From the NCBI GenBank assembly GCA_947501805.1, contig CANMXJ010000008.1, positions 124,001 to 188,000 of the forward strand: 64,000 nt of DNA, read 5' to 3'. The translations under genes and the position numbers were made by a program. Positions 7,409 through 43,958 of this stretch are shown here, piece by piece (the first letter of the stretch is position 1; every line of letters begins with the position of its first letter). The notes beneath the pieces are model-generated. The model had not been told where the DNA came from, did no database searches, and saw only the letters and a list, made by a program, of their open reading frames with translations. Origin of the DNA: an uncultured Sulfitobacter sp. (GTDB taxonomy: Bacteria; Pseudomonadota; Alphaproteobacteria; Rhodobacterales; Rhodobacteraceae).

Positions 7409-7459
7409 TTTTCTGGATAAATGCGCCATCGCCTCAGTCCAGATAAAGGAGATAACCGG

Positions 7460-10285: not shown

Positions 10286-10330
10286 TTGTAGATTCTGAAA
10301 CTTCGCTTAATCTATTAGCGTGCGAACTAA
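10286..10330 (+). promoter_or_regulatory. Promoter with shared operator, copy A
   Basis: TTGTAG (10286-10291), 16 bases, then TAATCT (10308-10313) forms a plausible sigma70 promoter for the dehydrogenase operon at 10386. Directly downstream lies TTAGCGTGCGAACTAA (10315-10330), whose reverse strand carries the core TTCGCNNGCTAA found in four other intergenic regions of the window. Position just after the -10 suits repression. Confidence 0.55.
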
Positions 10331-10385
10331 ATTGTGGTCGAGTGGCCGGGACAGGTTTTCGACGTAGCCAAGTGGAGGACAGCAA

Positions 10386-11573
10386 ATGGATTTGACCTAT
10401 GGCAAAGAGGACATCGCGTTCCGTCAGGAAGTGCGTGAATTTCTGGCTGAACATTTCCCCCAACAATTGGCTGACAAGGCACGGGCCGAAATACGGTTCA
10501 AGCTGGATGACTATCTGCTTTGGCAACGCATTCTGGGCGACAAGGGCTGGATCGCGCCACATTGGCCGGTTGAATACGGCGGTTGTGGCTGGACGCCTGT
10601 ACAGCTCAATATCTTTGATGAGGAAGTGACGGCAGTCGGCGCGCCGCGCGTCATGCCCTTTGGTATCCGTCTGGTCGGGCCGGTGATTTATACCTACGGC
10701 ACAGACGCGCAAAAGGCGCAGTACCTGCCGCGTATTTTGGCGAGCGAGGATTTCTGGTGTCAGGGATTTTCCGAACCGGGTGCCGGGTCTGACCTTGCCT
10801 CCCTGCGCACGTCGGCGGTGCGTGACGGGGACGAATATGTGGTCAACGGGCAGAAAATCTGGACCTCTTACGCGCATTACGCTGATTTGATTTTTTGCCT
10901 CGTGCGCACCGATACCACGGTGAAGAAGCAACTTGGTATTTCCTTTCTGCTGATTGATATGAAGTCCCCCGGTGTCAGCGTGCGCCCGATCCGGACATTG
11001 GATGGCGATCACATCGTGAACGAGGTGTTTCTGGAAAACGTCCGCGTGCCGGTGGAAAATCTGGTGGGAGAGGAAAACAAAGGCTGGGACTACGCCAAGT
11101 TCCTGTTGAGCAACGAACGCACGGGGATTGCGGGCATCGGCATGGTCAAGGCGGACCTCGCGCGCCTGCACCACATTGCCCTGACCGAACGGCGCAATGG
11201 CCAGCCTTTGATTGACGATCCATTGTTCCAAGCCCGGTTGGCGCGGCTGGAGATTGACCGCCGCGCGTTGGAACTGACCAACCTGCGGATGTTGACCACG
11301 GGCGGGGACAGCGGTGCGTTTCCCTCGATCCTCAAGATCAAGGGGTCGCAGTTGCAGCAACGCAGTGTTGAATTGCAGATGGAGGCTGTCGGTCCCTATG
11401 CACTACCTTGGCAATCGGATGCGATGGAGCCTGCTTGGAACGGTGAACCGGTCGGCCCTGATCATGTGCGTGCCCGCACGCCTGTCTATTTTGATCGACG
11501 CAAGACGACGATTTATGGCGGCTCAACCGAAGTGCAAAAGAACATCATCAGCAAAATCCTGCTGGACGTGTAA
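10386..11573 (+). CDS. Acyl-CoA dehydrogenase, probable catalytic subunit of a two-gene pair
   Basis: The 395-aa protein has the core motif CQGFSEPGAGSDLASLRTS, NGQKIWTS and the C-terminal TIYGGSTEVQKNI. A Glu in SNERTGIAGI occupies the position used as catalytic base by long-chain-type enzymes. It is followed 12 bases later by a divergent second acyl-CoA dehydrogenase gene, an arrangement known from the heteromeric (alpha2beta2) enzymes of steroid side-chain degradation. A strong GGAGGAC ribosome site precedes the ATG. It is the first gene of an operon running to 17586. Confidence 0.9.
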   Translation: MDLTYGKEDIAFRQEVREFLAEHFPQQLADKARAEIRFKLDDYLLWQRILGDKGWIAPHWPVEYGGCGWTPVQLNIFDEEVTAVGAPRVMPFGIRLVGPVIYTYGTDAQKAQYLPRILASEDFWCQGFSEPGAGSDLASLRTSAVRDGDEYVVNGQKIWTSYAHYADLIFCLVRTDTTVKKQLGISFLLIDMKSPGVSVRPIRTLDGDHIVNEVFLENVRVPVENLVGEENKGWDYAKFLLSNERTGIAGIGMVKADLARLHHIALTERRNGQPLIDDPLFQARLARLEIDRRALELTNLRMLTTGGDSGAFPSILKIKGSQLQQRSVELQMEAVGPYALPWQSDAMEPAWNGEPVGPDHVRARTPVYFDRRKTTIYGGSTEVQKNIISKILLDV

Positions 11574-11585
11574 GGGAGAGTTGAG

Positions 11586-12737
11586 ATGGATTTCAGCTAT
11601 AGCGATGAACAGCGGATGTTGTCCGAGAGCCTTGAAAAACTCTTTGCGGGTCATGCGGGGAGGAATGAAGACAGGGCGGCAGCGGATAAGCTGTGGCAGG
11701 CCTGTGCCGAGACCGGTCTGATCGGGTTGACTGTGCCCGAAGATCACGGCGGCCTATCCGGTGGATCTGCGGATGTGATGGTGGCCGCGATCGAAATCGG
11801 GCGGCATGGGGTGAACACGCCCTTTCTGTCCACGGCTGTGGCAGGGGCAGGGGCGTTGCGGCTGGCAGGAACCGATGCGCAACAACAGAGCCATCTAGGG
11901 CGGCTGGCCGAAGGCGGTTTGAAAGTGGCCTGCGCCTTTGCCGAACCGGGCGCGCGCTATGATCTGGCAGATGTGGATACGCGTGCGATCGAGGATGGCG
12001 ACGGCTATGTTCTGAGTGGCGATAAATGCGTTGTGTTTGGCGGTGATGATGCGGACCTGTTTGTGGTGTCCGCGCGCGCTCCCGATGAAGCACGCCATGG
12101 GGCTGAAGGGATTTCCCTGTTTCTGGTGGATGCTGAATTGGCCGGGATCACGCGCAAGGGATACCAGATGATTGACGGGCGCGGGGGCGCGGATGTGACC
12201 TTTGACAATGTACGCCTGCCGGCCGATGCTTTGCTGGGTACGCAGGGGCAAGGCTATGTCACGCTGGAAGCGGTCAATGATCTTGCCGCCGCTGCGATAT
12301 GTGCAGAGGGTCTGGGCGCATTGGAAAAGGTGGTTGAGTTGACCAAGGAATACCTCGAAACGCGCAAACAATTCGGCAAGGCGATTGGTGAATTTCAGGC
12401 GTTGCAGCATTTCTTTGCCGATATGGTTGTAGATTATGAGCACATTAAGTCGCTGGTGTTCGAGGCCGGCGCGATTGCCGACAGTGCAGATGTTGTTGAA
12501 CGCCAGCAGGCCGTGTCAGCGGCCAAGGTTGTGCTGGCCGAGGACGGACGCCGCATTTGCCAACAGGCAATCCAGATGCACGGCGGCATCGGGGTGACGC
12601 AGGAATACCAGCTGGGCGATTTTACCAAACGGGTCGCGGTTGCCGATTTTGCCTTTGGCGACGCTGATCATCATATCGCGCGGTATGGTCGCCATATGGT
12701 TGCCGCTGCCGCAGCTCGGGTGGCGCAAAATGGCTGA
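11586..12737 (+). CDS. Acyl-CoA dehydrogenase-like protein, probable non-catalytic partner subunit
   Basis: The 383-aa protein has the acyl-CoA dehydrogenase fold (ACAFAEPGARYDLADV, AIQMHGGIGVTQEYQLGDF). By eye, neither usual catalytic-Glu position is filled: the ERL-like position reads EAVNDLAAAA, and the C-terminal YEGT-like position reads FAFGDADHH. With the adjacent Glu-bearing gene, this suggests a heterotetramer sharing active sites. A GGGAG ribosome site precedes the ATG, and the end overlaps the next ligase gene by eight bases. Confidence 0.87.
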   Translation: MDFSYSDEQRMLSESLEKLFAGHAGRNEDRAAADKLWQACAETGLIGLTVPEDHGGLSGGSADVMVAAIEIGRHGVNTPFLSTAVAGAGALRLAGTDAQQQSHLGRLAEGGLKVACAFAEPGARYDLADVDTRAIEDGDGYVLSGDKCVVFGGDDADLFVVSARAPDEARHGAEGISLFLVDAELAGITRKGYQMIDGRGGADVTFDNVRLPADALLGTQGQGYVTLEAVNDLAAAAICAEGLGALEKVVELTKEYLETRKQFGKAIGEFQALQHFFADMVVDYEHIKSLVFEAGAIADSADVVERQQAVSAAKVVLAEDGRRICQQAIQMHGGIGVTQEYQLGDFTKRVAVADFAFGDADHHIARYGRHMVAAAAARVAQNG

Positions 12738-14283
12738 GACAAGCCTGACCCGGCTGCTTGAAACCGTGGCGCGTGCGCATCCGGGTGATCCGGCGGTGAC
12801 GTTTTTGGGCCGCACCCAAAGTTGGGCTAATTTTGCAGAACGGGCACGACGGCTGGGCGGGGCGTTGCGCGCCCTTGGTGTGGGCGAGGGCGACAGGATT
12901 GGTGTGCTTTCGCTCAATTCAGCGCGGTTCATGGAAGCATTTTATGGTCCCTTTTACGCTGATGCCGTGATGGTGCCGCTGAACTATCGCTGGGCCGTCC
13001 CGGAAATGGTGCAATGCATGCAAGACAGCACGCCTGTTGTATTGCTGGTAGACGAAAACCACGTCGATGACGCCCGCGCCATCATGGCTGAGTGCGGATT
13101 TTGCAAACACCTCATCTTTATCGGCGAAGGTGAGACGCCAGAAGGTTTGCTGAACTACGAAACCCTTTTGGCGCAAGCGGACAGCGATGTGCGATCCAAT
13201 CGAAGCGGCGATGATCTGGCCGCGCTGTTTTATACCGGCGGGACGACGGGACGGTCAAAGGGTGTGATGTTGAGCCATGCCAACCTGTGCGCCAATGCGG
13301 CGGGGTCGGTTGTCAGCTACAAGATGCCTGCAGGTCAGAGTTTTCTGACCTCGGCCCCGATTTTTCATCTGGCAGCGGGTGGCCGGGTCTATGCGCTGGC
13401 CGCAGCCAACAATCATGCGGTTGTGATGCAGCGGTTTGACCCGCGCGAGGCGCAGAGGTTGATCGAGACGCTACAGATCAACGATGCGATGCTGGTGCCA
13501 AGCATGATGAACATGATTTTCAACGCGCTGGATTTTGGTGAATTCGACCTTGGTTCCCTACGCCGGATTACCTACGGGGCGGCACCCATGTCCCTTGGGC
13601 TTCTCAAGCGGGTGATAGCAGCGCTGCCGGGGGTTGATTTCTATCAGGGATACGGCGCCACCGAAACAGGTCCGTTGATATCGACATTGCATCCGGATGC
13701 ACATGACCCTGACAGCCCGCTTGTAGATAAACTGGCATCGGTGGGTCGTCCGGTGTCCCATTGTGATGTGCGTGTTGTGACCCCTGACGGCAGCCCTTGT
13801 GCACCCGGGCAAGTAGGAGAAGTGACAGTGCGCGGTCCCAATGTCATGCAGGGGTATTGGAACATGCCGGAAAAGACCGCCGAAGTTCTGGTGGACGGCT
13901 GGTATCATACCGGCGATGGGGGTTACTTTGATGCAGATGGGTATCTGTTTCTGGTCGACCGCATCAAGGATATGATCATTTCAGGCGGTGAAAACGTCTA
14001 TTGTGCAGAGGTGGAAAATGCCCTGTCTGCCCATCCAGCGGTCAAGGATTGCGCGGTGATTGGTGTGCCGGATGAACAATGGGGCGAAGCCGTGCACGCG
14101 GTGATTGTCTTGATGGAGGGGCAAAGCGTGACCGCACAGGCGTTGATCGAACATTGCAGGACGCGGATTGCCCGCTACAAATGTCCCAAGTCCGTCAGTT
14201 TTATTGACAAGATGCCCCTGTCTGCGGCCAACAAGGTTCTCAAAACGGAGTTGCGGGCCATGCAGCGTCGTGCGGTGCAATGA
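12730..14283 (+). CDS. AMP-forming acyl-CoA ligase
   Basis: The 517-aa adenylate-forming enzyme activates a carboxylic acid to its CoA thioester via an acyl-AMP. Motifs are the P-loop LFYTGGTTGRSKGVMLSH, YGATETGP, the hinge YHTGDGGYFDADGYLFLVDR and the C-terminal lysine in LSAANKVLKTEL. The ATG at 12730 overlaps the previous stop by eight bases and gives a normal N-terminus. An upstream in-frame start at 12640 would read through coding sequence of the previous gene. The acid used is unknown. Confidence 0.92.
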   Translation: MAETSLTRLLETVARAHPGDPAVTFLGRTQSWANFAERARRLGGALRALGVGEGDRIGVLSLNSARFMEAFYGPFYADAVMVPLNYRWAVPEMVQCMQDSTPVVLLVDENHVDDARAIMAECGFCKHLIFIGEGETPEGLLNYETLLAQADSDVRSNRSGDDLAALFYTGGTTGRSKGVMLSHANLCANAAGSVVSYKMPAGQSFLTSAPIFHLAAGGRVYALAAANNHAVVMQRFDPREAQRLIETLQINDAMLVPSMMNMIFNALDFGEFDLGSLRRITYGAAPMSLGLLKRVIAALPGVDFYQGYGATETGPLISTLHPDAHDPDSPLVDKLASVGRPVSHCDVRVVTPDGSPCAPGQVGEVTVRGPNVMQGYWNMPEKTAEVLVDGWYHTGDGGYFDADGYLFLVDRIKDMIISGGENVYCAEVENALSAHPAVKDCAVIGVPDEQWGEAVHAVIVLMEGQSVTAQALIEHCRTRIARYKCPKSVSFIDKMPLSAANKVLKTELRAMQRRAVQ

Positions 14284-14687
14284 TGACCACCAACGGGTTT
14301 ACATCGACCACGGATTTCAATGCTTACCTTGGCTGCCGTCTGGTGGACTGGGGCGTGGGCACATCCACGATCGAGCTTGAGATTGATGGGCATCATTTGA
14401 ATTCGCAGGGCATTGGCCACGGTGGTGTCCTGCTGTCCCTGCTTGATTCAGCCTGCGGGGCCTGTGGCAGTCTCAAACCGCCACCCGCGCCACGGTGTAT
14501 AAGCGTCACGTTGTCGCTGAGTGCGAATTTCGTGCAGCCGATGCGAGGCTCCAAAATATGGGCACGGGGGAAATTGACCGGCGGTGGCCACAAGATCTAC
14601 TTCGCGCAGGCAACCATCCATGATGACACCGACCAGCTGATTGCGACCGCGAACGGGGCGTTCAAGCGGGTCGACAAGAAATCATGA
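14280..14687 (+). CDS. PaaI-type hotdog-fold thioesterase
   Basis: The 135-aa protein is a single hotdog domain with the PaaI/4HBT core NSQGIGHGGVLLSLLDSACG, in which the Asp of LLDS is the likely catalytic acid. Such enzymes hydrolyse dead-end or excess acyl-CoA and free CoA. It is held between two acyl-CoA ligase genes by ATGA overlaps on both sides, fitting a proofreading role in the same pathway. Confidence 0.85.
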   Translation: MMTTNGFTSTTDFNAYLGCRLVDWGVGTSTIELEIDGHHLNSQGIGHGGVLLSLLDSACGACGSLKPPPAPRCISVTLSLSANFVQPMRGSKIWARGKLTGGGHKIYFAQATIHDDTDQLIATANGAFKRVDKKS

Positions 14688-16198
14688 CCGGGACCGCAGA
14701 GGGGCGGCTGATCATTGGGGAGCGGACCATTTCTTTTGACGCTGTTCACCGCGATGCGCGTCACATGGCGTCGGGTCTTGTCGCGGCCGGCCTGACGCGC
14801 GGGTCCACACTTGCGATCATGCTGCGCAATGACGAAGCGTTCTTTACCGCGACCGTTGCTGCCGCTCTGATTGATGCAACCGCGACCCCGATAAACTGGC
14901 ATTTCACCGCAGATGAAGTGACTTATCTCCTCAAGGACAGTCAGGCGAAAGCGTGGATCGTGCATGCCGACCTGTGGCGCAAGATCGGCGGTGACATACC
15001 CCAAGAAGTCCTTGACGCTCTTTTGGTGCTGGTTGTCGAAAGTCCCGAAGAAATTGCACAAGCCTTTGGCATCGCACAGCAGGATTGTGTGATACCCGAA
15101 GGGATGACGGACTGGCGGAACTGGCTTGAAGGGTTTCCGGAATGGGACGGTCCGCCTCCGCAGCCGGGATATGCGACAATCTATACCTCCGGCACCACGG
15201 GCCGCCCCAAAGGGGTCAAGCGCGTTGGCGTTGTCGGAGTTGCCAGCAAGGGAAATTACAACGCCTTTGTCAAAGGTGCGCGTGTGTTGATGGTGGCTCC
15301 GATGTATCACAGCGCGCCGAACCGGAACGCAATCTCGTCGTTTTTCACAGGCGGTGATATTGTTCTGATGCCGCGCTTTGATCCCGAAGCGATGTTGTCT
15401 CTGATACAGCAATACCGCATCACGCATATGTTCATAGTGCCGACGATGATGGTGCGGTTGCAAAAACTACCGGCTGAAGTGCGCGCGCGTTATGATATGT
15501 CTTCGCTGGAACATGTTGTGCATGCGGGTGCGCATTGCCCGCCGGATGTCAAAAGCGCCATGATTGATTGGTGGGGGCCAGTGATTTACGAATTCTATGG
15601 CGGGACCGAAACCGGTGCTGTGACCTATTGTACCTCTGCCGAAGCGTTGGAAAAACCTGGCACCGTGGGCTGTGCGGTGCCTGACGCGACCATCAGGATC
15701 ATCGACGAAAACGGGCGCGAATGTCCGGTTGGCGCGGCCGGCGAAATCTATGTACGACTGCACACGCTGCCTGATTTCACCTATCAGGGATTGCCGGAAG
15801 AACGGCTGAAGGTCGAACATGAAGGGCTGATCACCTGCGGCGATGTCGGCCATCTGGATGCGGACGGCTATCTGTTCCTGACGGACCGCAAGAAAGACAT
15901 GGTGATTTCCGGCGGCGTCAATATCTACCCCGCGCAGGTTGAAGCCGTGATGCTGCGCCACCCTGCCATCCTGGATTGTGCTGTCTTTGGCCTGCCTGAT
16001 CCGGACATGGGTGAAAAGGTGGTCGCCGCGATAATGTTGGCAAAGGATCACACACTGACGCTGGTAGAACTCAAGGACGCACTTGAGGGGCAGATCGCAA
16101 CCTACATGATCCCGCGTGAATTGTTCGTGATGGACAGTTTGCCGCGTGATCCATCGGGCAAGATGTACAAGCGCAAACTGCGTGACCAATTCGTATGA
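14684..16198 (+). CDS. AMP-forming acyl-CoA ligase (second in operon)
   Basis: The 504-aa enzyme shows TIYTSGTTGRPKGVKRVG, EFYGGTETGA, GDVGHLDADGYLFLTDRKKD and the catalytic lysine in PSGKMYKRKLR. It is clearly different in sequence from the ligase at 12730, so the two probably activate different acids or successive intermediates. It overlaps the thioesterase gene before it and the membrane-protein gene after it by ATGA, so all are cotranslated. Confidence 0.92.
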   Translation: MTGTAEGRLIIGERTISFDAVHRDARHMASGLVAAGLTRGSTLAIMLRNDEAFFTATVAAALIDATATPINWHFTADEVTYLLKDSQAKAWIVHADLWRKIGGDIPQEVLDALLVLVVESPEEIAQAFGIAQQDCVIPEGMTDWRNWLEGFPEWDGPPPQPGYATIYTSGTTGRPKGVKRVGVVGVASKGNYNAFVKGARVLMVAPMYHSAPNRNAISSFFTGGDIVLMPRFDPEAMLSLIQQYRITHMFIVPTMMVRLQKLPAEVRARYDMSSLEHVVHAGAHCPPDVKSAMIDWWGPVIYEFYGGTETGAVTYCTSAEALEKPGTVGCAVPDATIRIIDENGRECPVGAAGEIYVRLHTLPDFTYQGLPEERLKVEHEGLITCGDVGHLDADGYLFLTDRKKDMVISGGVNIYPAQVEAVMLRHPAILDCAVFGLPDPDMGEKVVAAIMLAKDHTLTLVELKDALEGQIATYMIPRELFVMDSLPRDPSGKMYKRKLRDQFV

Positions 16199-17586
16199 GC
16201 CGAACCGGGTTCTCCTCCCTCAGCATTGTTCTTACCAGCCTGATGGCTGCGGTGCATCTGCTAGGATTTGCACAGGCCACAACCGTTTTGTCAGGTGTTT
16301 TTCTGACGATATTCGTTGTGCTGGAATGGCCGCGCCTGATCTGGGCGGCGCGCGGGGTGCTGTTGACGGCACTTGTCTTGTTTTGCGCATTATGGCTCAT
16401 GGGCAGGACCACGCCGGAATTGCTGGCAGCTGCGGTTGATCGTGCCGCCTTTTTTGTCTGTTTCGTTGTCGTGCTGAGCGTGCTGGGTGATGCTGCGCGC
16501 ACGTCGAAACTGGTGCGCACCAGTGGGCGTATCATTGTCAACCAAACTCCGGGGCGGCGGTATCTGACGCTTACATTTGGCGGTCATCTGATGGGCGTTT
16601 TGATGAACCTTGGCACGGTTACCCTGCTCAGTACCATGATCTACGGTTCGGTGACGCAAGGCACGCAAACCGCGGATCAAAGGGTCCGCGACATTCGGTT
16701 GAAACGGATGACAATGGCGATGCTGCGCGGGTTTTCCGCGGTAACTTTCTGGGCACCAACATCCGTTACCATCGCGATTATCCTCTCAAGTTCACTTCAA
16801 TTGCGTTGGATTGACCTGCTCCCGCTCGGTATTCCGGGGTTTGTGTGCTATATCGCGCTTGGCTGGTTGGTTGACCGGATGACATTTGCGCGCCCCAAGT
16901 CGAGCCTTGTGGCCGGTCCATCCGAACCGTGGTTGCGTCCTTTTGCTCAATTACTGGCGATCATTTTTCTTGTGCCCTCATCCGCCGCGATTGTGTCCTA
17001 TACGTTCGATCTAAGCTTGATCGGCGGCTTGTTCCTCTGCATTCCGGTGATTGGTCTGGGCTGGATGACCCTGCAATACCGGCATGCGGGCAGAGGCCGT
17101 GCCATTCTGCTGACGTTGCGCCGTGCAAGGACCAAGACAGTACCGTCGCTTTGTGATTTGCGTAACGAAATGACCATATTTGCCGCATCGGGTTTTCTTG
17201 CGGTGATCTTGCTGCCGCAAATCGACGTCGTCTGGCTGGGTGAAAATATCACGCGGCTCGGGTTGGGCGAGGGGGCCGTTCTGGTCGCGGGGTCATGGAC
17301 AATCATTTTGCTGGCATTGGTCGCCGTCAATCCGCTGGTATCGGCACCTTTGGTGATTGAAACGCTGGTGCGGTTGCCAAATCTGGAGTTCGATCCGGCA
17401 GTGATCGCGTTCACTGTCACTGCCGCTTGGGGCATCATTGTGGGGTTCTCACCCTTTGCCGCATCGGTGCGTTTGACAGCGCGCGGCGTAAATCGCCCAG
17501 CGTCAGATGTCGGCGCAAAGTGGAATTTCGTGTTTTCACTTTGCGCAGTTATGCTGCTGAATGTGGGACTGCTTGTACTGGTGTAA
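16195..17586 (+). CDS. Polytopic membrane protein of unrecognised family, possible carrier
   Basis: The 463-aa protein is strongly hydrophobic with about ten to twelve predicted membrane segments and no signal peptide. Two short polar-in-hydrophobic motifs, FGGHLMGVLMNLGTVTLLS in the first half and WGIIVGFSPFAASVRLTARG near the end, look like the paired re-entrant loops of ion-transporter-superfamily carriers, but I cannot place it in a named family. Its start overlaps the acyl-CoA ligase stop (ATGA), so it belongs to the operon. Uptake or efflux of the acid substrate is a guess. It ends 19 bases from a convergent acyl-CoA dehydrogenase gene. Confidence 0.7.
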   Translation: MSRTGFSSLSIVLTSLMAAVHLLGFAQATTVLSGVFLTIFVVLEWPRLIWAARGVLLTALVLFCALWLMGRTTPELLAAAVDRAAFFVCFVVVLSVLGDAARTSKLVRTSGRIIVNQTPGRRYLTLTFGGHLMGVLMNLGTVTLLSTMIYGSVTQGTQTADQRVRDIRLKRMTMAMLRGFSAVTFWAPTSVTIAIILSSSLQLRWIDLLPLGIPGFVCYIALGWLVDRMTFARPKSSLVAGPSEPWLRPFAQLLAIIFLVPSSAAIVSYTFDLSLIGGLFLCIPVIGLGWMTLQYRHAGRGRAILLTLRRARTKTVPSLCDLRNEMTIFAASGFLAVILLPQIDVVWLGENITRLGLGEGAVLVAGSWTIILLALVAVNPLVSAPLVIETLVRLPNLEFDPAVIAFTVTAAWGIIVGFSPFAASVRLTARGVNRPASDVGAKWNFVFSLCAVMLLNVGLLVLV

Positions 17587-17605
17587 CAAAGCTGCGGGTG
17601 ATCCC

Positions 17606-18766
17606 TTAATATGATTTCGGCAGACCCAATCCACGCTCCGCGATAAAGCACAGGGCAAGTTGTTGGCTGACGGGTGCAAGATACGGAATCATCACTTCGC
17701 GGAACAAGCGCTCCACATGATATTCACGGGCATAGCCCATGCCCCCATGTGTCGCCATGGACTGACGACACATATCCTGTGCGGCTTCGGCTGCGAGGTA
17801 TTTCGCGGCGTTCGCCTCGACCCCGCAAGGGGCCCCCGCATCGTACAGCGCGGCGGCCTTATGGATCATCATCCGCGCCGCTTCCAGTTGCGCCCAACCG
17901 GCGGCAAGCGGATGCTGGATGCTTTGGTTCATGCCAATGGGGCGTTCAAACACCACACGATCCTTGGCGTATTGGGTGGCGCGGCGCAGCGCATCAAGGC
18001 CCAACCCGACTGCTTCGGCGGCGATCAGAATACGTTCGGGATTGAGCGAATGCAGCAGATAGCTGAACCCTTTGCCTTCCTCACCCACCAGATCACAGGC
18101 CGGAATTTCGAAGTTGTCGATGAACAGCTCATTTGTGTCGATGGCCTTGCGCCCCATTTTGTCGATCAACCGCACGTCAATGGCATCGCGGTCCATATCG
18201 GCAAAGAACAGGCTAAGGCCCGCCGTTGGATTGGCATCGTCACGCTCTGACGTGCGGGCGATCAGCATTATCTTGTCCGCCACCTGCGCCGTCGAGGTCC
18301 AGATTTTATGACCGTTCACGATATACTTGTCGCCCTTGCGCACCGCGCGGGTTTTCAGGCGCGTTGTGTCAAGGCCGGTGTTGGGTTCGGTCACTGCAAA
18401 ACACATCCGCGACTTACCCGCAATGATGTCGGGCAGCCAGCGGGCGGATTGCTCGGGCCTGCCGAACTTGATCAAGGATTTCGGCCCGAAGATGTTCATA
18501 TGCACGGCAGAAGCCGCTGTCATGCCGCCGCATTTGGCGACTTCGGTCATCATCAGGGCTGCATCAAATACGCCTAAACCGCTGCCCCCGAATTCTTCGG
18601 GCATGGTGATGCCAAGCCAACCGCCGTCTGCCAGGGCCTTGACGAACTCCGTTGGGAAATCGCCGGTTTGATCGTGATCGGCCCAATAATCGTCATCGAA
18701 AGGTGTCATCGCCGATTGCAATGCTGTGATCAGCGTCTCGTGCTCGGCCGTTAAAGTGAAGCTCAT
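17606..18766 (-). CDS. Acyl-CoA dehydrogenase
   Basis: The 386-aa enzyme has MCFAVTEPNTGLDTTRLKTR, NGHKIWTST and the C-terminal block MATHGGMGYAREYHVERLF. The probable base is the Glu in LNPERILIAAEAVG. It is transcribed alone on the minus strand, divergent from the acyl-CoA carboxylase operon. Its promoter is unusually good (TTGACT, 17 bases, TAATAT) and holds a shared operator in the spacer. An AAGGAA ribosome site lies eight bases before the ATG. Confidence 0.91.
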   Translation of the reverse strand: MSFTLTAEHETLITALQSAMTPFDDDYWADHDQTGDFPTEFVKALADGGWLGITMPEEFGGSGLGVFDAALMMTEVAKCGGMTAASAVHMNIFGPKSLIKFGRPEQSARWLPDIIAGKSRMCFAVTEPNTGLDTTRLKTRAVRKGDKYIVNGHKIWTSTAQVADKIMLIARTSERDDANPTAGLSLFFADMDRDAIDVRLIDKMGRKAIDTNELFIDNFEIPACDLVGEEGKGFSYLLHSLNPERILIAAEAVGLGLDALRRATQYAKDRVVFERPIGMNQSIQHPLAAGWAQLEAARMMIHKAAALYDAGAPCGVEANAAKYLAAEAAQDMCRQSMATHGGMGYAREYHVERLFREVMIPYLAPVSQQLALCFIAERGLGLPKSY

Positions 18767-18809
18767 GGCAACATTTCCTTGCTCTCGATGCGGGAAGTAC
18801 TTTAAACAA

Positions 18810-18838
18810 ATATTAGTTAGCTAGCGAACAGTAGTCAA
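18810..18838 (-). promoter_or_regulatory. Promoter with shared operator, copy C
   Basis: On the minus strand TTGACT (18838-18833), 17 bases, TAATAT (18815-18810) is a near-consensus sigma70 promoter for the dehydrogenase at 17606-18766. The near-palindrome TTAGTTAGCTAGCGAA (18813-18828; core TTCGCTAGCTAA on the minus strand) fills most of the spacer and enters the -10. It could also serve the divergent carboxylase operon. Confidence 0.6.
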
Positions 18839-18860
18839 ACTGCGAATGCACAGGCAGGCG

Positions 18861-18875
18861 GTTTCAACTTGAAAC
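18861..18875. promoter_or_regulatory. Perfect 7-1-7 palindrome before the carboxylase operon
   Basis: GTTTCAA-C-TTGAAAC is a perfect inverted repeat 36 bases before the carboxyltransferase ATG. It is unlike the shared operator and may be a second regulator site or a short hairpin in the 5' leader. Confidence 0.35.
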
Positions 18876-18911
18876 GACGCTTTTCGGCAGGACAAATTTG
18901 GAAGATGTGAC

Positions 18912-20534: not shown

Positions 20535-20545
20535 GGGATATGCAC

Positions 20546-24593: not shown

Positions 24594-24611
24594 GGGTGCT
24601 TCCGATAAATG

Positions 24612-24643
24612 TTAGCTTGCGAATTAAATACGGCAATTATAGT
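24612..24643. promoter_or_regulatory. Divergent promoter region with shared operator, copy B
   Basis: TTAGCTTGCGAATTAA (24612-24627; core TTCGCAAGCTAA on the minus strand) lies between the CoA transferase and the hydratase operon. Its right part overlaps TTGCGA, a possible -35 for a TATAGT -10 at 24638-24643 on the plus strand (spacing 15, short). Occupancy could affect both directions. Confidence 0.5.
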
Positions 24644-24676
24644 CTTCACACAATCTATTTCAGCGAGGATACGGCC

Positions 24677-30180: not shown

Positions 30181-30211
30181 GTGAACTGTCCTTCTGTCGG
30201 GTCAACTGGGA

Positions 30212-31009: not shown

Positions 31010-31010
31010 G

Positions 31011-32216: not shown

Positions 32217-32218
32217 GA

Positions 32219-33673: not shown

Positions 33674-33698
33674 GTTCGGCTATCCTTCTTGTTCGTCG

Positions 33699-36412: not shown

Positions 36413-36467
36413 GGACTTCTCCCCAAAAGGCACCGGCATAGGTCAGGCGGTGCCAAATTCCCTAAAT

Positions 36468-36508
36468 TTACTTCACTCGCTAATAATACACTAGTTTACT
36501 TTTGTCCA
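36468..36508 (-). promoter_or_regulatory. Promoter with shared operator, copy D
   Basis: On the minus strand TGGACA (36508-36503), 17 bases, TATTAG (36485-36480) is a plausible promoter for the operon starting at 36412. TTACTTCACTCGCTAA (36468-36483; core TTCACTCGCTAA) overlaps its -10. The flanks (AATTTA before, TA after) match the reverse strand of copy A over about 20 bases. The SDR operon at 36571 is divergent and may share it. Confidence 0.55.
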
Positions 36509-36570
36509 GCGAGATTATAGAAAGCACTCAACGGCCCGCTGGTTTGGGTTACTTTTGGAAAGGATTGATC

Positions 36571-37494
36571 ATGTCAGAGAACGGAAAATTGCTGGAGGGC
36601 AAAACTGCCATCGTAACAGGCGGCGGGCGCGGCCTTGGCCGCGACATCGCGCTGCAACTGGCAGCAGCCGGTGCCAACATCGTGGTGAACGATCTGGGCG
36701 GTGCGGCCAGCGGTAAAGGATCGGACCTTGGTCCAGCCGCAGAGGTTGTTAAAGAAATCGAAGCGGCGGGTGGCAAGGCCGTTGCCAATGGCGAGAGTGT
36801 CGCCAGCAACAAGGCCGCGCATGAGATGGTGGCACAGGCCAAAGACACCTTTGGCGGGCTGGATATTGTCGTGAACAATGCAGGCATCCTGCGCGATGCG
36901 ATTTTCCACAAGATGACCGAGGAAGATTGGGATTCCGTGATCTCTGTGCACCTAAAGGGTGCGTTCAACATCTCGAGCGCCGCCGCGCAGGTGTTCCGCG
37001 AGCAAAGCTCTGGCCGCATGGTTCACATGACCTCCACCTCAGGTCTGATCGGCAATCTAGGGCAGGCGAATTACTCCGCTGCCAAGCTGGGCATCGCGGC
37101 GCTGTCGCGTTCTATCGCGCTCGACATGGCGCGCTATAACGTGACCTCAAACGCCATTGGTCCCTTCGCGTGGAGCCGTCTGATCGGCACGATCCCGATG
37201 AACTCCGAGGCTGACAAAATCCGTATCGAGCGGATGCAGAAAATGACACCGGCCAAGATCGCACCGCTGGTTGTCGCGCTGTCTTCCGACAAGGCGCAGC
37301 ATATCACAGGTCAGATTTTCGTGGCCCGTTCCAACGAAGTGCTGCTGTTCAACCAGCCGCGCCCGATCCGTTCCATGGCACGTTCCGAAGGCTGGACACC
37401 GGAAACGCTGATCGAACATGCCTTCCCCGCATTCGACAATTCGCTGACGCCGCTGGAACGCTCGCCCGACGTGTTCTGCTGGGATCCGGTGTAA
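36571..37494 (+). CDS. SDR-family (3R)-hydroxyacyl-CoA dehydrogenase, MFE-2 dehydrogenase-domain type
   Basis: The 307-aa short-chain dehydrogenase has cofactor motif TGGGRGLG, the diagnostic IVVNDLGG and GGKAVANGESV segments seen in the dehydrogenase domain of peroxisomal multifunctional enzyme type 2, NNAGILRD, and catalytic Ser/Tyr-x3-Lys in TSTSG ... YSAAK. It should oxidise a (3R)-hydroxyacyl-CoA. The ATG at 36571 follows AAAGGA. The start at 36502 is rejected as lacking a site. The MaoC hydratase two bases downstream is the matching second half. Confidence 0.88.
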   Translation: MSENGKLLEGKTAIVTGGGRGLGRDIALQLAAAGANIVVNDLGGAASGKGSDLGPAAEVVKEIEAAGGKAVANGESVASNKAAHEMVAQAKDTFGGLDIVVNNAGILRDAIFHKMTEEDWDSVISVHLKGAFNISSAAAQVFREQSSGRMVHMTSTSGLIGNLGQANYSAAKLGIAALSRSIALDMARYNVTSNAIGPFAWSRLIGTIPMNSEADKIRIERMQKMTPAKIAPLVVALSSDKAQHITGQIFVARSNEVLLFNQPRPIRSMARSEGWTPETLIEHAFPAFDNSLTPLERSPDVFCWDPV

Positions 37495-37496
37495 AT

Positions 37497-38363
37497 ATGA
37501 CGGCTGATTTTGAGAAACACCTCAAGAGCTATCCTTTCGAGGAGATAGAGCAGCGCTGGAGCGATAAGGATTCGATTCTTTACGCACTGGGTCTTGGCTT
37601 TGGCCATGATCCGCTCGACGCGGCGCAACTGCCGTTTGTATTCGAGGAAGCACCGGGGTTCTCTGCGGTGCCGACGATGGCGGTTGTACTGGCCGGGCCA
37701 GGCTTCTGGGCGCGTAATGAGGACACCGGCATTATCTGGCAAAAGGTGCTGCACGGTGAGCAGGGAATGGAGCTTTTCCGCCCGCTGCCCGCCTCCGGCC
37801 ATGTCAAAGCGACCAGCCGTGTTGTTCGTGTGCTCGACAAGGGCGAAGGCAAAGGCGCGCTGATCTATGTGGAACGTGACCTGATCGACGTGGAAAGCGG
37901 CGAGAAGATCGCAACGCTGACCTCCACCACCTTTGCCCGTGGCAATGGCGGGTTTGGCGGCGAGGCGGGGCCGCAACCGGCACCGCACACGATCCCTGAT
38001 CGCGCACCGGATGTTGAGGTTGATCTGCCAACGCTGCCACAGGCCGCGCTGATTTACCGTCTGTCCGGTGACTTCAATCCGCTGCATGCGGACCCCGCTG
38101 TCGCCAAACAGGTAGGCTTTGAAAAGCCAATTCTGCACGGGCTGTGCACCTTGGGTGTCGCGGGTCATGCGGTGCTCAAGGCGTTCTGCGACTATGATGC
38201 GGCGCGGATGAAATCGCTCAAGCTGCGCTTCTCTGCCCCCGTCTATCCGGGCGAAACCATCCGCACGCAAATGTGGAAAGACGGCAATGTCATCTCTTTC
38301 CGCGCCCGTGTGGTAGACCGTGATGTGACCGTGCTGGACAACGGTCGCGCTGAAATCACCTGA
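37497..38363 (+). CDS. MaoC-family (R)-specific enoyl-CoA hydratase 2, double hotdog
   Basis: The 288-aa protein has the length and order of MFE-2 hydratase 2: a degenerate N-terminal hotdog (GLGFGHDPLD, VLAGPGFWA) and a C-terminal hotdog with the hydratase motif YRLSGDFNPLHADP and GFEKPILHGLCTLG, giving the catalytic Asp/His pair. It would convert a trans-2-enoyl-CoA to the (3R)-hydroxyacyl-CoA used by the SDR encoded two bases upstream. Confidence 0.92.
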   Translation: MTADFEKHLKSYPFEEIEQRWSDKDSILYALGLGFGHDPLDAAQLPFVFEEAPGFSAVPTMAVVLAGPGFWARNEDTGIIWQKVLHGEQGMELFRPLPASGHVKATSRVVRVLDKGEGKGALIYVERDLIDVESGEKIATLTSTTFARGNGGFGGEAGPQPAPHTIPDRAPDVEVDLPTLPQAALIYRLSGDFNPLHADPAVAKQVGFEKPILHGLCTLGVAGHAVLKAFCDYDAARMKSLKLRFSAPVYPGETIRTQMWKDGNVISFRARVVDRDVTVLDNGRAEIT

Positions 38364-38374
38364 AAGGCCATGTC

Positions 38375-38851
38375 ATGAACCACGACCTGCACGCCAGACG
38401 CTCCGCGTTCAACGATGTGTCGCGCCTGCGCAGCACGCTGTTTGACCGGTTGATCGCCTCGCAAGGCATTACGATGTCGCAGGCGTGGTTGCTGACGCAG
38501 CTGTTTATTGAGGACAACCTGACGCAATCGGAACTGGCACAGCGCATGCATGTCGGCACGGTTGCAACAGGGGCCACGATCAACCGGCTTGAGGCACAGG
38601 GGCTGGTGACGCGGACCACCGACAGTCATGACAAACGCGCCAAGCGCATTCGTCTGACCAAGGCGGCCTATCCGATTGGGCGGGCCATGGGACGCTGTGA
38701 AAAAGAGGTGAACAAGATCACCTATGGCGACATCAGCGCAGCAGAGCTGGACGCGATGTTTGCCACGATGTTCAAGATTCGCGAGAACCTGCAAGCGGGA
38801 TTGGACGCAAATAGTAGTGACGACACACCCACAGTAAGGATCGCAGGATGA
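38375..38851 (+). CDS. MarR-family transcriptional regulator (second paralogue)
   Basis: The 158-aa protein has the winged helix [19 protein letters not shown], recognition helix [11 protein letters not shown] and wing [16 protein letters not shown]. It shares the RMHVGTV segment and overall layout with the MarR protein at 9802. It lies 11 bases after the MaoC gene and overlaps the next CoA transferase gene by ATGA, so it is made with the pathway it may control. It is a candidate reader of the shared operator. Confidence 0.9.
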
Positions 38852-39924
38852 CGGGCGGGCCGCTTGCCGGAATACGGATTGTCGAATTTGCCGGAATCGG
38901 GCCGGGCCCCTTTGCCGCGATGATGCTGGCGGATATGGGCGCGGATGTTGTGCGGATTGTGCGGGCGGGGGCGGCGGACAACTTGGATGATCCGGTCTTG
39001 CGCGGTCGCCGCTCTGTGGCGCTTGACCTCAAATCAGCAGACGGGCTGGCGGCGGCCTTGCATCTGATCAAACAGGCGGATGGCTTGATCGAAGGGTTCC
39101 GCCCTGGCGTGATGGAGCGCCTGTCGCTTGGTCCCGAAGACTGCCATGCCGTGAACCCCGCGCTGGTCTATGGCCGCATGACGGGATGGGGACAAACGGG
39201 GCCGTTGTCCCACGCAGCGGGCCACGACATTAATTATATCGCACTGTCCGGCGCCCTTTGGTCGACGGGTGAGGCAAACCGCCCACCCGTCGCTCCCCTG
39301 AACCTGTTGGGCGATTACGCGGGCGGGTCGATGTTTCTTGTCTCGGGCATGTTGGCCGCGTTGCTGGCGGCGGCCCGCACGGGCAAAGGTGATATTGTGG
39401 ACGCCGCGATCAGCGATGGTGCGGCAACTCTGATGACGATGTTTTATGGCAAGATGGCGCAGGGCGACTGGGATGTTGCGCGACAGTCAAACCGGCTGGA
39501 TGGTGGTGCGCCTTACTACGGCGTTTATGAGTGCAGCGACGCCAAGTGGATCACCATTGCGCCACTTGAACCGCAGTTCTTTGTTCTGTTCCTTGAGCTT
39601 TTGGGGCTGCCAGCGGATCACTACCCTGACCGCACTGACAAAGCGCAATGGGCCACACGCCGCGCCGAGTTTGCTGAGATTTTCATCAAGCGATCCCGCG
39701 ATGAATGGTGTGATCTGTTCGAAGGCACCGACGTCTGCTTTGCCCCCGTTCTGGACCCTAACGAGGCACCGGACCATCCGCATAATCGCGGGCGTTCTGT
39801 TTTCTCGCAGGGCAGTTCTCCCATCCCCGCGCCAGCGCCACGGTTCACTGAAGCTGTTGCTGCGGCGCGTGGACAGATTGAACCTGTCGAATGGAATGAC
39901 ATTCGTGATTGGCCCTTGATTTAA
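38848..39924 (+). CDS. CaiB/BaiF-family protein, alpha-methylacyl-CoA racemase-like
   Basis: The 358-aa protein resembles alpha-methylacyl-CoA racemases in length and in the active-site stretches [15 protein letters not shown] (His) and [17 protein letters not shown] (Asp). Racemases invert the 2-methyl centre so that branched acyl-CoAs can be dehydrogenated. Members that transfer CoA look similar, so transferase activity is not excluded. It follows the SDR, MaoC and MarR genes in one operon. Confidence 0.87.
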
Positions 39925-40831: not shown

Positions 40832-42175
40832 TCAAAACATCGAATTCGGCACGAACAACGACAGGATCGGGAAGCTGAGCAGCAAGAGCAGCACACCGAT
40901 GTCGAGGATCAGGAACTTCATCACGCCAAAGAAGATCGTATGCACCTGCGCGGCCTTGCCGACGACCGAGTTGATCACAAAGACGTTCAACCCCACAGGC
41001 GGTGTGATTAATCCGATCTCAAGCAGCTTGATCACGATAACCCCGAACCAGATCAAATCATAGCCCATGCCCTCAACCAGAGGCACAACAAAGGGCAGGG
41101 TCAAAAGCATGGTGCCAATCGGATCAAGGAACATGCCCATGATCAGATAGATGAACACGATGCACAAAAGCACCTGCCAGTTTTCCAGACCGGAGGCCGA
41201 GACCAGTTCAACCAGCTGGCTGGTGACGCCGGTGAGGGACACGAAGGACACAAAGATTTTCGCACCCACCGCGATAAAGAACAAAGCGGCAGATTGAAAC
41301 GCTGTTTCGCGCATTGAAATGATGAAGTTCGCCCACGACAGACGTTTGGCAATGAAACCAAACAGGGTGACAAAAGCCAGACTGACAGCAGCCGCTTCGG
41401 TCGCGGTAAAGATGCCGCCATAGATACCGCCGATGATGATCGTCATCAGCATCACGGCCGGCCATGCCTTGATCGCGGCGGCGGTTTTCTCGGCGCGTGT
41501 GTATTGCACCGTGACTGCAGGGGCGACCTCGGGGCGTAGTTTCACCCAGATCACCACCGTCAGGATAAAGCCCAACAGACTTAAGATACCAGGGATAACG
41601 CCTGCTAAAAACAACCGGCTGATCGAGGTTTCGGTGAACAATCCGTAAATGATGAACAATACCGATGGCGGGATCAGCGACCCAAGCGTACCACCGACGG
41701 CCACCGTAGAAGTAGCAAGCTGGGGCGAATACCCGTAACGCAGCATTTCCGGCACACAGATGCGGCCCATCGAAGAGGCACAGGCGACACTGGAACCGGT
41801 GATGGCAGAGAAGCCCCCGCAACCGATCAGCGACGCGATGGCCAACCCACCCGGCGCTTTGCCCATCCAGACGCGCACGGTGTCGTAAATGTCGGTGGTG
41901 ATGCGAGCGTGATAGGCCACATGCCCCGCTGCGATGAACAGCGGCACCATCGACAGCGAATAAGAATGGATGAACTCAAACGCGTTGGATTCGATCAAGC
42001 CCAGAGCAGGACGCAAACCACGGTCGAAATCAAACTCGCGACCGGGGCGCCATGCGTAGGCCACCAGAGAGCAGACAGAGGCAACCCCTGCCAGCGTAAA
42101 GCCAATCGGCACGCGCAGGGAAAGCAGAATAAGAACGGCGGCAAACCCGTAGACGCCAATCGTTTGCGGATCCAT
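40832..42175 (-). CDS. TRAP transporter large permease (DctM family)
   Basis: The 447-aa inner-membrane protein has the DctM layout with LSLRVPIGFTLAGVASV at the start, AITGSSVACASSMGRICVP and SLIPPSVLFIIYG in the first half and the matching second half (MFLDPIGTMLLTLPFVVPL; GLITPPVGLNVFVINS). It is the ion-coupled channel of a TRAP importer. Its ATG overlaps the DctQ stop by one base (TAATG). Confidence 0.94.
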   Translation of the reverse strand: MDPQTIGVYGFAAVLILLSLRVPIGFTLAGVASVCSLVAYAWRPGREFDFDRGLRPALGLIESNAFEFIHSYSLSMVPLFIAAGHVAYHARITTDIYDTVRVWMGKAPGGLAIASLIGCGGFSAITGSSVACASSMGRICVPEMLRYGYSPQLATSTVAVGGTLGSLIPPSVLFIIYGLFTETSISRLFLAGVIPGILSLLGFILTVVIWVKLRPEVAPAVTVQYTRAEKTAAAIKAWPAVMLMTIIIGGIYGGIFTATEAAAVSLAFVTLFGFIAKRLSWANFIISMRETAFQSAALFFIAVGAKIFVSFVSLTGVTSQLVELVSASGLENWQVLLCIVFIYLIMGMFLDPIGTMLLTLPFVVPLVEGMGYDLIWFGVIVIKLLEIGLITPPVGLNVFVINSVVGKAAQVHTIFFGVMKFLILDIGVLLLLLSFPILSLFVPNSMF

Positions 42176-42762
42176 TAATCAAGGCCCTTCGTCAGATCAT
42201 GTTCTTCGGGTTCGTAAGACAGCACGCCAAAACCAACCAGTAGATCGTGAACCAGCAGATCCAGAAGGCGGAGTACAAAGACAACGTAGCCAAGAAAGAA
42301 CGCGAGGCGTCCGGGCCACTCGGGCAGGGACAGCAAGCCAAAGAAGTAGTTGCCACTGGTCAGCGCAACTTCCGCCGCATGATAGGCGGCATATGCAATC
42401 GGCATAGTGGCAAGCAGACCGACTGAAACGGCCAGCACGTTAAGCCATTTCTGGACCGATGCAGGCATGCTGTTGGTCAGCAATTCGACCGCGATGAATC
42501 CACGGTCCGCCGCGACAAATCCCAGTGGCAGGATCAGTGCTGCAACCATCAATTCGCCCACAACCACAACTTCATCAGGGACTTGCGAGGCAAAGAAGGT
42601 GCGCAGGATGATGCCCGTACAGATGTAAATGCAGAACAGAATAATCGCCAAAGCACCCAGATCGAGGAACAGTTTTTCAACCCGTCCCATCAGACCGCGC
42701 ACTTTGGCATAGGTGGAACGGCCCTTTTCCGGGGCCGCTCCGTTTGTGTTCAGCGGGCCCAT
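42175..42762 (-). CDS. TRAP transporter small permease (DctQ family)
   Basis: The 195-aa protein has four membrane helices and the DctQ-type RTFFASQVPDEVVVVGELM and PLGFVAADRGFIAVELL segments. It links the binding protein to the large permease. It starts inside the end of the binding-protein gene (13-base overlap), so the three genes are one transcription unit. Confidence 0.92.
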   Translation of the reverse strand: MGPLNTNGAAPEKGRSTYAKVRGLMGRVEKLFLDLGALAIILFCIYICTGIILRTFFASQVPDEVVVVGELMVAALILPLGFVAADRGFIAVELLTNSMPASVQKWLNVLAVSVGLLATMPIAYAAYHAAEVALTSGNYFFGLLSLPEWPGRLAFFLGYVVFVLRLLDLLVHDLLVGFGVLSYEPEEHDLTKGLD

Positions 42763-43808
42763 GGGTACCCTTTGGCGTCACGCTCAGCTGTGTATTTGGC
42801 GATCAGATCCTGAAACTGGTTGTAGATGCCATCACCATCATAACCTGCCGCATTCATCTCGGATTTCCACGATTCAACAAATGGCTCACCCGCCGCGAAA
42901 AGCTTCGCGCGTTCTTCCTCGGCCATTGGGGTCACAGTGACCTTGGACCCGATCTCGCCTGATTTCATCGCCGCAAGCGTGGTATCAAAGTCTTCGATCT
43001 GCAATTGGGCAAAATGATCGGTCATCATGGAACCCGCCTTGAGCATCACTTCCTGTTGCTCAGGCGTGAGCTCCTCAAAGGTGTCCTTGTTCATCACAAT
43101 GCCAAAACCGGAAACCTGACCCCAGTTGGTCAGCGTCATCGTGTCGGCAACTTCGTGCAGCTTGTAAGCCTTTGTCGTGTAGACATAACCAGCAGAACAA
43201 TCGATCAGGCCGGAATCAAGCGCCTGATAGACCTTGTCAAAGGTCATGTTAACCATGGTCGCGCCCAGTTCGGACAACACCTTGGCATATACGCCAGAGG
43301 CGCGCATTTTCTTGCCATTGATATCCTCGACCGTGCGAATGTCATGGCCCGGCGCGCATTCCATTTGCAAAGACGTGGTCGTAAAATTACCGATGTAGAC
43401 AACGTTTTGCTTGGCCAGAATTTCTTTCATCTGGTCGTTTGTGGTCATCAGTTCATACATCGCGCGCATCCCGACCCAAGGGTCAGAGTTATCACCGGGC
43501 AGATCGCCGATGGTCATCGCCTTGAGTTCGTTGGGTGTATAAACTGCAATGACAGCACCCAGATCAGCAGTGCCCGCGCCGATACCGCCAAGCGCGGCTT
43601 TGAACTTGAGCAGCGCACCGCCCCAGTGGATGTCCAGCTTCAGCTCGCCACCTGAAAGCTCTTCGATCTGTTCCGCGAAATAGGTCTGCGCCGCCGCGCG
43701 CGTGCCGCGGTTCGGCCCGCCATCCGTGTATCGCAGCACGATTTCCGCGCTTGCCATCGAGGCCATAGACGCGAGGGCAAGGCCCATCATTGTGGCTTTA
43801 AAGTTCAT
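42750..43808 (-). CDS. TRAP transporter substrate-binding protein (DctP family)
   Basis: The 352-aa periplasmic protein has a clear signal peptide (MNFKATMMGLALASMASMASA) and the DctP core, including the conserved Arg in INGKKMRASG that binds a substrate carboxylate, and FDKVYQALDSGLIDCSAGY. The ligand should thus be an organic acid. Shared operator copy E lies just upstream, which links this importer to the acyl-CoA island and suggests that it brings in an acid used there. Confidence 0.93.
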   Translation of the reverse strand: MNFKATMMGLALASMASMASAEIVLRYTDGGPNRGTRAAAQTYFAEQIEELSGGELKLDIHWGGALLKFKAALGGIGAGTADLGAVIAVYTPNELKAMTIGDLPGDNSDPWVGMRAMYELMTTNDQMKEILAKQNVVYIGNFTTTSLQMECAPGHDIRTVEDINGKKMRASGVYAKVLSELGATMVNMTFDKVYQALDSGLIDCSAGYVYTTKAYKLHEVADTMTLTNWGQVSGFGIVMNKDTFEELTPEQQEVMLKAGSMMTDHFAQLQIEDFDTTLAAMKSGEIGSKVTVTPMAEEERAKLFAAGEPFVESWKSEMNAAGYDGDGIYNQFQDLIAKYTAERDAKGYPWAR

Positions 43809-43915
43809 CTTATCATTCTCCCTGTTCGTTTTTGTTTTTTGGTATTTTATCGAAGAGCCAACGGGTTTTCACCGTGGAGCCGACTATCTGCGGCATTTCT
43901 CCCCAGCCGCGCAAA

Positions 43916-43958
43916 TTAGTTTGCTAGCTAACTATAACCAATCTCGAATTTGCATCAA
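43916..43958 (-). promoter_or_regulatory. TRAP promoter with shared operator, copy E
   Basis: On the minus strand TTGATG (43958-43953), 16 bases, TATAGT (43936-43931) is a good promoter for the TRAP operon. TTAGTTTGCTAGCTAA (43916-43931; core TTTGCTAGCTAA) begins at the -10 end, the same geometry as copy A. It is the most symmetric copy of the motif. Confidence 0.6.

Follow-up and report, generated by a model that had tools for sequence, protein, structure and literature searches.

Repressors of the MarR family that are released from DNA by coenzyme A (CoA) thioesters are known, as described for CouR in the accessible text of PMC4737184, and further MarR repressors of acyl-CoA catabolism that are relieved by CoA esters have been reviewed (accessible part of PMC5487221). 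For SlyA, the operator consensus TTAGCAAGCTAA and the rule TTAN6TAA are given in the accessible part of PMC5797941, and Ser62, Val64 and Arg65 are named in that of PMC4737184 as residues contacting bases. In this study, we analysed a 64,000-nucleotide stretch from an uncultured Sulfitobacter sp. (contig CANMXJ010000008.1, positions 124,001 to 188,000; called the window, always meaning the whole stretch), in which a short palindrome recurs in five intergenic regions of an island of acyl-CoA genes. The island spans about 9.8–43.8 kb of the window (4.56-Mb genome, 47 contigs) and encodes PimC/PimD-like and other acyl-CoA dehydrogenases, acyl-CoA ligases, a carboxylase pair, two class III CoA-transferases, an AtuA-family protein, hydratases, a thiolase, an HMG-CoA-synthase-like protein, a TRAP importer and two MarR proteins, MarR1 and MarR2. 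Judged from the sequence, a regulator encoded within the cluster very probably binds the shared palindrome, and because several promoters carry it, the genes of the cluster are likely turned on together. By our own estimate, it is highly likely that the island's two MarR proteins use the sites as operators in one way or another.

Candidate operator sites and the operons of the island

The first-pass annotation of this DNA had placed one palindromic operator at 10315, 18813, 24612, 36468 and 43916; all five sequences are present there, and all are intergenic. The candidate operators, called P1 to P5, are:

10311..10330: operator P1, core 10315–10326 (TTAGCGTGCGAA), upstream of the acad1 operon
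18813..18832: operator P2, core 18817–18828, between acad3 (minus strand) and pccB (plus strand)
24608..24627: operator P3, core 24612–24623, between caiB1 (minus strand) and ech1 (plus strand)
36468..36487: weak operator P4, core1 36472–36483 (TTCACTCGCTAA), between acad4 (minus strand) and sdr (plus strand)
43916..43935: operator P5, core 43920–43931, upstream of the TRAP operon

The repeat had been read as a symmetric 16-mer, which was rejected as the dyad because its symmetry is lower than that of the 12-bp core TTMGCNNGCKAA, centred 2 bp away. The fraction of complementary pairs was higher for the core at 17 of 17 sites, by a small margin at the window sites; 3–5 of the 6 core pairs are complementary at the five window sites and 4–6 at 12 sites from other genomes.

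Four sites stand out when the whole genome is counted. The motif TTMGCNNGCDAANTAA, which is also the consensus obtained from sites of other genomes, occurs exactly at four places, namely the sites 10315, 18813, 24612 and 43916, and its reversed control nowhere. With up to one mismatch, 12 places were found, five of them being the sites (36468 is one of the eight single-mismatch places), and 22 for the reversed control. Thus, the concentration of hits anticipated for a genome scan was obtained for the exact places (four of four in the island); the motif is not enriched in the genome at large, since the total of 12 lies below the control. The pattern TTAGYTNGCNARCTAA gave the same four sites with 0–1 mismatch and 146 places with up to three mismatches (reversed control 621); 36468 differs from it by three mismatches (manual count). 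The seven single-mismatch places of TTMGCNNGCDAANTAA outside the island sites all lie in open frames of at least 190 codons, a loose test, as stop-to-stop frames of this length also overlap three of the five island sites. One of them, TTCGCTTGCGAAATAC on contig C15, was rejected as a further member because it lies inside an IclR-family frame (Pfam), and the other six were set aside because their frames hint at coding sequence. The annotated pattern TTCGCNNGCTAA, with up to one mismatch, gave seven window matches against 3.78 expected; 8 of 100 shuffles reached seven, and two matches (19070 and 31744) fall outside the five sites. This count, not being significant, was replaced by the whole-genome counts and a matrix from other genomes.

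The matrices were built from 12 outside sites, taken from the sister genome G080, from G084, from G329 of another genus and from five Roseobacter-clade loci; these sites had been located with the aid of the window motif, so that a matrix contains no window letters yet is not wholly independent. With the symmetric 20-bp matrix, the sites take ranks 1–5 of the window: 43916 (27.7 bits), 18813 (24.9), 24608 (24.4), 10311 (20.2) and 36468 (17.7). The next independent place scores 11.7 bits; shuffle maxima were 10.1–13.5 bits in nine of ten shuffles and 18.6 in one, and one of ten thus scores higher than 36468. With the one-directional 16-bp matrix, four sites reach 19.8–23.8 bits, above all ten shuffle maxima (12.8–16.5). 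None of the symmetric matrix's best window places lies at the acyl-CoA dehydrogenase gene 7421–8602, outside the island as drawn, and no place reaching 11 bits was found in 56 kb of contig C8 beyond the window or in 19 kb of contig C21. On this basis, the sites 10315, 18813, 24612 and 43916 are firm, and 36468 is probable.

A consensus scan supported promoters at three sites. At P2, TTGACT-17-TAATAT on the minus strand holds the operator core inside its spacer, as annotated for 18.8 kb; at P3, the -10 of CTGAAA-16-TATAAT (minus strand) lies 8 bp before the site; at P5, the site overlaps the -10 TATAGT of TTGATG-16-TATAGT. These positions fit repression, because a dimer bound there would block the polymerase. 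The annotation had drawn promoters at four sites by their -10, of which the scan bears out P3 and P5 and, with P2, three promoters in all.

A copy of one MarR-type operator family stands before every operon between acad1 (10386) and the TRAP genes (43808), both included, with operon limits that are themselves inferred. To this extent, the annotated operator before every island operon and the importer is supported; its reading as one regulon is not, with two MarR proteins in the island and a different element kept at 36.5 kb together with MarR2. The genes are arranged as follows:

10386..17586, plus strand: P1 operon, starting with acad1; two acyl-CoA dehydrogenases (PimC/PimD-like), acyl-CoA ligases, thioesterase, 463-aa protein
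17606..18766, minus strand: acad3, acyl-CoA dehydrogenase
18912..23340, plus strand: acyl-CoA carboxylase subunits (including pccB) and mycothiol-isomerase-like protein
23337..24593, minus strand: caiB1, class III CoA-transferase
24587..29408, plus strand: enoyl-CoA hydratase (ech1), AtuA-family protein, ADP-forming acyl-CoA synthetase
29392..36439, minus strand: P4 left operon; hydratases, thiolase, HMG-CoA-synthase-like protein, acyl-CoA ligase, acyl-CoA dehydrogenase (acad4)
36502..39924, plus strand: P4 right operon; SDR, MaoC hydratase, marR2, CoA-transferase
40832..43808, minus strand: TRAP importer dctM-dctQ-dctP

The listed start of ech1 is TTG 24587; its true start is probably an ATG downstream of P3. 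Together, AtuA, acyl-CoA carboxylase and hydratase weakly point to methyl-branched or terpenoid acids as the island's substrate. The 463-aa protein (16195–17586) had no Pfam or NCBIfam match at 0.001, and its relatives (37–41% identity) lie close to related MarR genes at the loci L176, L179, L225 and L088. The protein of 22543–23340 (TIGR03084, mycothiol-isomerase-like, a name from family models only) lies within an alphaproteobacterial acyl-CoA carboxylase operon. TRAP genes are found inside or beside the thiolase operon in the sister island (L075, G080:C3:22804-25597), in G433 and in Oceaniovalibus, with 47–71% identity to those of the window; the TRAP subunits of G329 reach 77–93%. Because the window's importer resembles that of G329 more than that of the sister island, it may have been exchanged. 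A plasmid search with a 10-kb query gave no match.

Regulators, related genomes and the P4 promoter

The two regulator genes of the island are:

9802..10236, plus strand: marR1, MarR-family regulator (Pfam MarR_2, 6.9e-15)
38375..38851, plus strand: marR2, MarR-family regulator (Pfam MarR_2, 3.8e-12)

Both proteins pass the MarR_2 cut-off of 27 bits (MarR1 55.4, MarR2 46.6) and are 38% identical to each other. MarR1 has orthologues in G080 (82% identity) and G329 (61%); MarR2 was not found in G329, a genome in about 1180 contigs. No close MarR1 was found in G433 and Oceaniovalibus, G433 having a distant second MarR (1.9e-21), and the window's genome encodes two further, more distant MarR proteins at other places. 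In a MarR tree, calculated without L222–L225, support was 100/100 for the MarR2 clade, 95/95 for the Roseobacter clade and 98/92 for MarR1 with its G080 orthologue. Assignment of the Roseobacter-clade MarR to MarR1 or MarR2 was rejected, as it forms a third clade. The recognition helices read HVGTVTVSGLLDRLE in MarR1, HVGTVATGATINRLE in MarR2 and typically VATVTTSKLIDRLE in the Roseobacter clade. At the positions of SlyA Ser62, Val64 and Arg65, MarR1 has T, S, G, MarR2 has A, G, A (its orthologues A, G, G) and the Roseobacter clade T, S, K; helix positions were aligned to SlyA through MarR2, and the match of the chain numbering to Ser62 is our own reading.

The island is orthologous in G080, with most proteins 66–97% and the TRAP subunits 50–69% identical. 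Among P1–P3, sharp conservation was seen at P2 only, where 15 of 16 positions are identical while the flanks diverge. The counterpart of P4 core1 looks broken in G080, seeming by eye to lack four central bases (core dyad 3/6), and P5 has no counterpart, the TRAP genes lying there inside the thiolase operon with no site before them. In G084, a single island site was found; it precedes an acyl-CoA dehydrogenase gene close to the MarR of that genome. In G329, sites with one mismatch each lie before dctP (P5 counterpart, TTCACTAGCAAACTAA) and acad1 (P1 counterpart), and the sdr/acad4 site (P4 counterpart) is the only exact match of that genome. The conservation across species that the annotation had anticipated was recovered for P2 in G080 and for P1, P4 and P5 in G329; in G080 the P4 counterpart looks broken, and the P1 and P3 sites are present but, as detailed below, not sharply conserved.

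In an operator-pattern search of seven genomes with up to one mismatch, reversed controls equalled or exceeded the matches in all seven (G318 tied at 5/5); the MarR2-only genomes G433 and G491 had 12 and 3 matches, none of them inside the MarR2 island. In a set of 60 genus genomes, exact matches number 4, 3 and 3 in the three genomes with the MarR1 type (at 4, 2 and 1 distinct island places) and 15 in the other 57 combined, with a reversed control of 18 over all 60; genomes lacking the MarR1 type show background matches only. Two of these 57, G020 and G034, hold a Roseobacter-type MarR with its own operator form. Sites of 21–23 bits were found at three loci of related MarR proteins (L178, L222 and L225), L178 having two places, one of them double with 15-bp spacing. 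Separately, a 24.2-bit operator match lies in G080 (L180:7553-7572, G080:C27) between an IclR-family regulator and a branched-chain-type periplasmic binding protein (Pfam); it is a possible extra regulon member.

The equal standing that had been given to the five sites could not be upheld: besides the weakness of 36468 and its broken-looking G080 counterpart, a consensus operator is lacking at P4 in both MarR2-only islands. The core1 counterpart of G433, TAAGCTAGCTTA, is a perfect but altered dyad with two mismatches from the core (15.6 bits); in Oceaniovalibus, core1 is not recognisable (best 9.5 bits), while CACTAGTTTACTT is kept there. A further feature was listed at this promoter:

36487..36509: second P4 element, core2 TACACTAGTTTA at 36487–36498 within TACACTAGTTTACTTTTGTCCAG; putative MarR2 operator, or else a conserved part of the promoter

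Core1 (36472) and core2 (36487) lie 15 bp apart, in a frame picked after the layout had been seen. The element CACTAGTTTACTTNTGTNNAG occurs once in each of four MarR2-encoding genomes (window, G080, G433 and Oceaniovalibus) and is absent from G329, which has MarR1 only. The pattern was derived from the same four genomes, and its reversed control gave 5 places (up to three mismatches, five genomes); what carries information is therefore that the element is present in four exact copies, that G329 lacks it and that it is sharply conserved relative to its flanks.

In the Roseobacter clade (Pseudooceanicola, Thalassovita, Seohaeicola and others), the divergent acad4/sdr promoter bears ATTAGCTTGCA-N5-TNATCAAGMTAATTA, a 31-bp double form about 1.1 kb before a related marR. 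With up to three mismatches, it was found in 15 of 16 genomes searched, and its reversed control in none of the 16. The search took in 16 of 21 loci, and because the pattern was drawn from these loci, its presence at the acad4/sdr promoter holds by construction. In nine genomes (L162–L170), a second, separate place on the same contig, at 7.9–9.5 kb in eight and at 137 kb in G484, suggests a second target promoter. The double form can be read as a pair of 12-bp cores with 15-bp spacing: with the matrix alone, both cores are detected at this distance in L085, L091, L095 and L178, and in a core comparison over 25 double-form loci the two cores were cut at fixed offsets. Tentatively, this layout at the syntenic promoter might reflect two dimers side by side as the ancestral state. 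At L086, where the locus reaches far enough, the second double-form site precedes a maoC gene.

Proposed mechanism and alternatives

We propose that MarR1, whose gene stands at the left end of the island, has as its operator TTMGCNNGCKAA flanked by an outer TAA on one side or on both. Dimers of MarR1 would occupy the core promoter, or the DNA next to it, at P1, P2, P3 and P5 and block RNA polymerase; a pathway acyl-CoA formed from the imported substrate would release them, so that enzymes and TRAP importer would rise together. P4 would be a double operator: its MarR1-type core (36472) would have decayed, and MarR2, which would mainly govern this promoter between acad4 and the sdr-maoC-marR2 operon, would read a diverged core (36487) at a distance of 15 bp. 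This division, with MarR1 at P1, P2, P3 and P5 and MarR2 at P4, is somewhat favoured by the sequence evidence. What the sequences show are the sites, their clustering in the island and their recurrence in related islands that hold this MarR subfamily; we infer which protein binds which site, that binding represses rather than activates, and that the ligand is an acyl-CoA, the last from the island's enzymes alone. Tentatively, the island may further be seen as two modules, each with its own MarR and operator, whose networks overlap at P4 in a double operator with cores 15 bp apart, the MarR1 core decaying in one species and lost in the sister, and the MarR2 core fixed. If so, it would illustrate in nature how paralogous repressors and their operators drift apart.

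Several observations weigh against the proposed MarR1/MarR2 model or against single sites in it. With the one-directional matrix, 36468 and 36472 score 11.6 and 14.8 bits, and four of ten shuffles exceed 14.8, which is within chance; no promoter was found by the consensus scan at P1 (10.3 kb) or P4 (36.5 kb), where the annotated promoters are not supported. Sharp conservation of the P1 and P3 operators was not borne out in G080, since neither is better kept than the DNA around it: the P1 counterpart TTCGCACACGAACTAA is identical at 12 of 16 positions, against 53 of 70 in the compared stretch, and scores 14.5 bits only, and P3 is identical at 14 of 16, against 35 of 40. Many MarR genes are autoregulated, but no operator site was found upstream of marR1, and autoregulation was dropped from the model. 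No strong site was found in the stretch read at the MarR1-group loci L110/L179, L115/L176 and L116/L177 (best 15.5 bits, L179), nor at the relatives L107, L108/L182 (13.7 bits), L109, L111–L113 and L224. The wider MarR1 group has a support of 86/94 with long branches flagged. Outside the MarR2 clade, too, Ala is found at the first of the compared helix positions and Gly at the second, so the helix differences are a hint only. The element 36487–36509 could be kept promoter sequence instead of an operator, and sequence alone does not assign P1–P3 and P5 to MarR1 rather than MarR2.

An alternative that is possible, if rather doubtful, is a single regulon with two readers, as the annotation had it, in which MarR1 and MarR2 bind all five sites with the same specificity, perhaps for two CoA esters. 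The two proteins share their island and 38% of their residues, both recognition helices start with HVGTV, and at P4 the palindrome TAAGCTAGCTTA of 15.6 bits is present in G433, which encodes MarR2 but no close MarR1. The MarR2-only island of Oceaniovalibus, however, has no such core at P4 (best 9.5 bits) and yet keeps CACTAGTTTACTT, and the helix residues of MarR1 and MarR2 differ.

An operator read by a regulator encoded elsewhere in the cell, such as a global SlyA-like or fatty-acid regulator, would account for the resemblance of the core to the SlyA consensus TTAGCAAGCTAA (accessible part of PMC5797941), and two more distant MarR proteins are indeed encoded elsewhere in the genome. It is nevertheless improbable: the 57 genus genomes without the MarR1 type give background matches only, and a global regulator should have sites off the island, whereas the seven other single-mismatch places all lie in frames of at least 190 codons, by the loose test given above. 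Even less credible is that the motif is no operator and merely a by-product of AT-rich promoter sequence. The sites do overlap -10 hexamers at P2 and P5, but they are concentrated in one island, the reversed control has no exact match in the genome, and the GC pairs of the core recur across genera.

Comparison with known systems

No description of this regulon was found among the papers listed by literature searches, nor in the accessible text of PMC5343134. For a marine island of acyl-CoA degradation that includes an AtuA-family protein and an acyl-CoA carboxylase, it would provide an operator and a regulator open to testing. Islands with MarR1 only, with MarR2 only and with both would form a small natural series in which to study how operator specificity changes between paralogous MarR proteins.

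With SlyA/RovA of the Enterobacteriaceae, the system shares the MarR fold and a 12-bp palindrome of the form TT.GC..GC.AA, and among proteins of solved structure, SlyA chains give some of the best sequence matches. It differs in that the rule TTAN6TAA fits none of the five window cores, that both proteins miss the 120-bit cut-off of NCBIfam NF002926 (MarR1 54.5, MarR2 46.2), and that the window sites are local to a catabolic island. CouR of Rhodococcus jostii RHA1 is likewise a MarR repressor of acyl-CoA catabolic operons, with one operator serving divergent promoters and four promoters named in the accessible text of PMC4737184. There, the CouR operator cATTGA-5 bp-TCAATg is described as overlapping the -35, whereas TTMGCNNGCKAA lies at or after the -10 in the window, and by eye the five window sites do not match the CouR box. 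Also related are the Roseobacter-clade acad4/sdr-marR-caiB2 islands, which have a syntenic divergent promoter, a related MarR and the same kind of core, TTAGCTTGCAAA; unlike the window, they bear the 31-bp double operator and a single island MarR of the third clade. Taken together, the finding is a local MarR regulon of a well-known type, a well-supported but ordinary form of bacterial control, to which the possible split between two paralogues at P4, as a proposal, adds interest.

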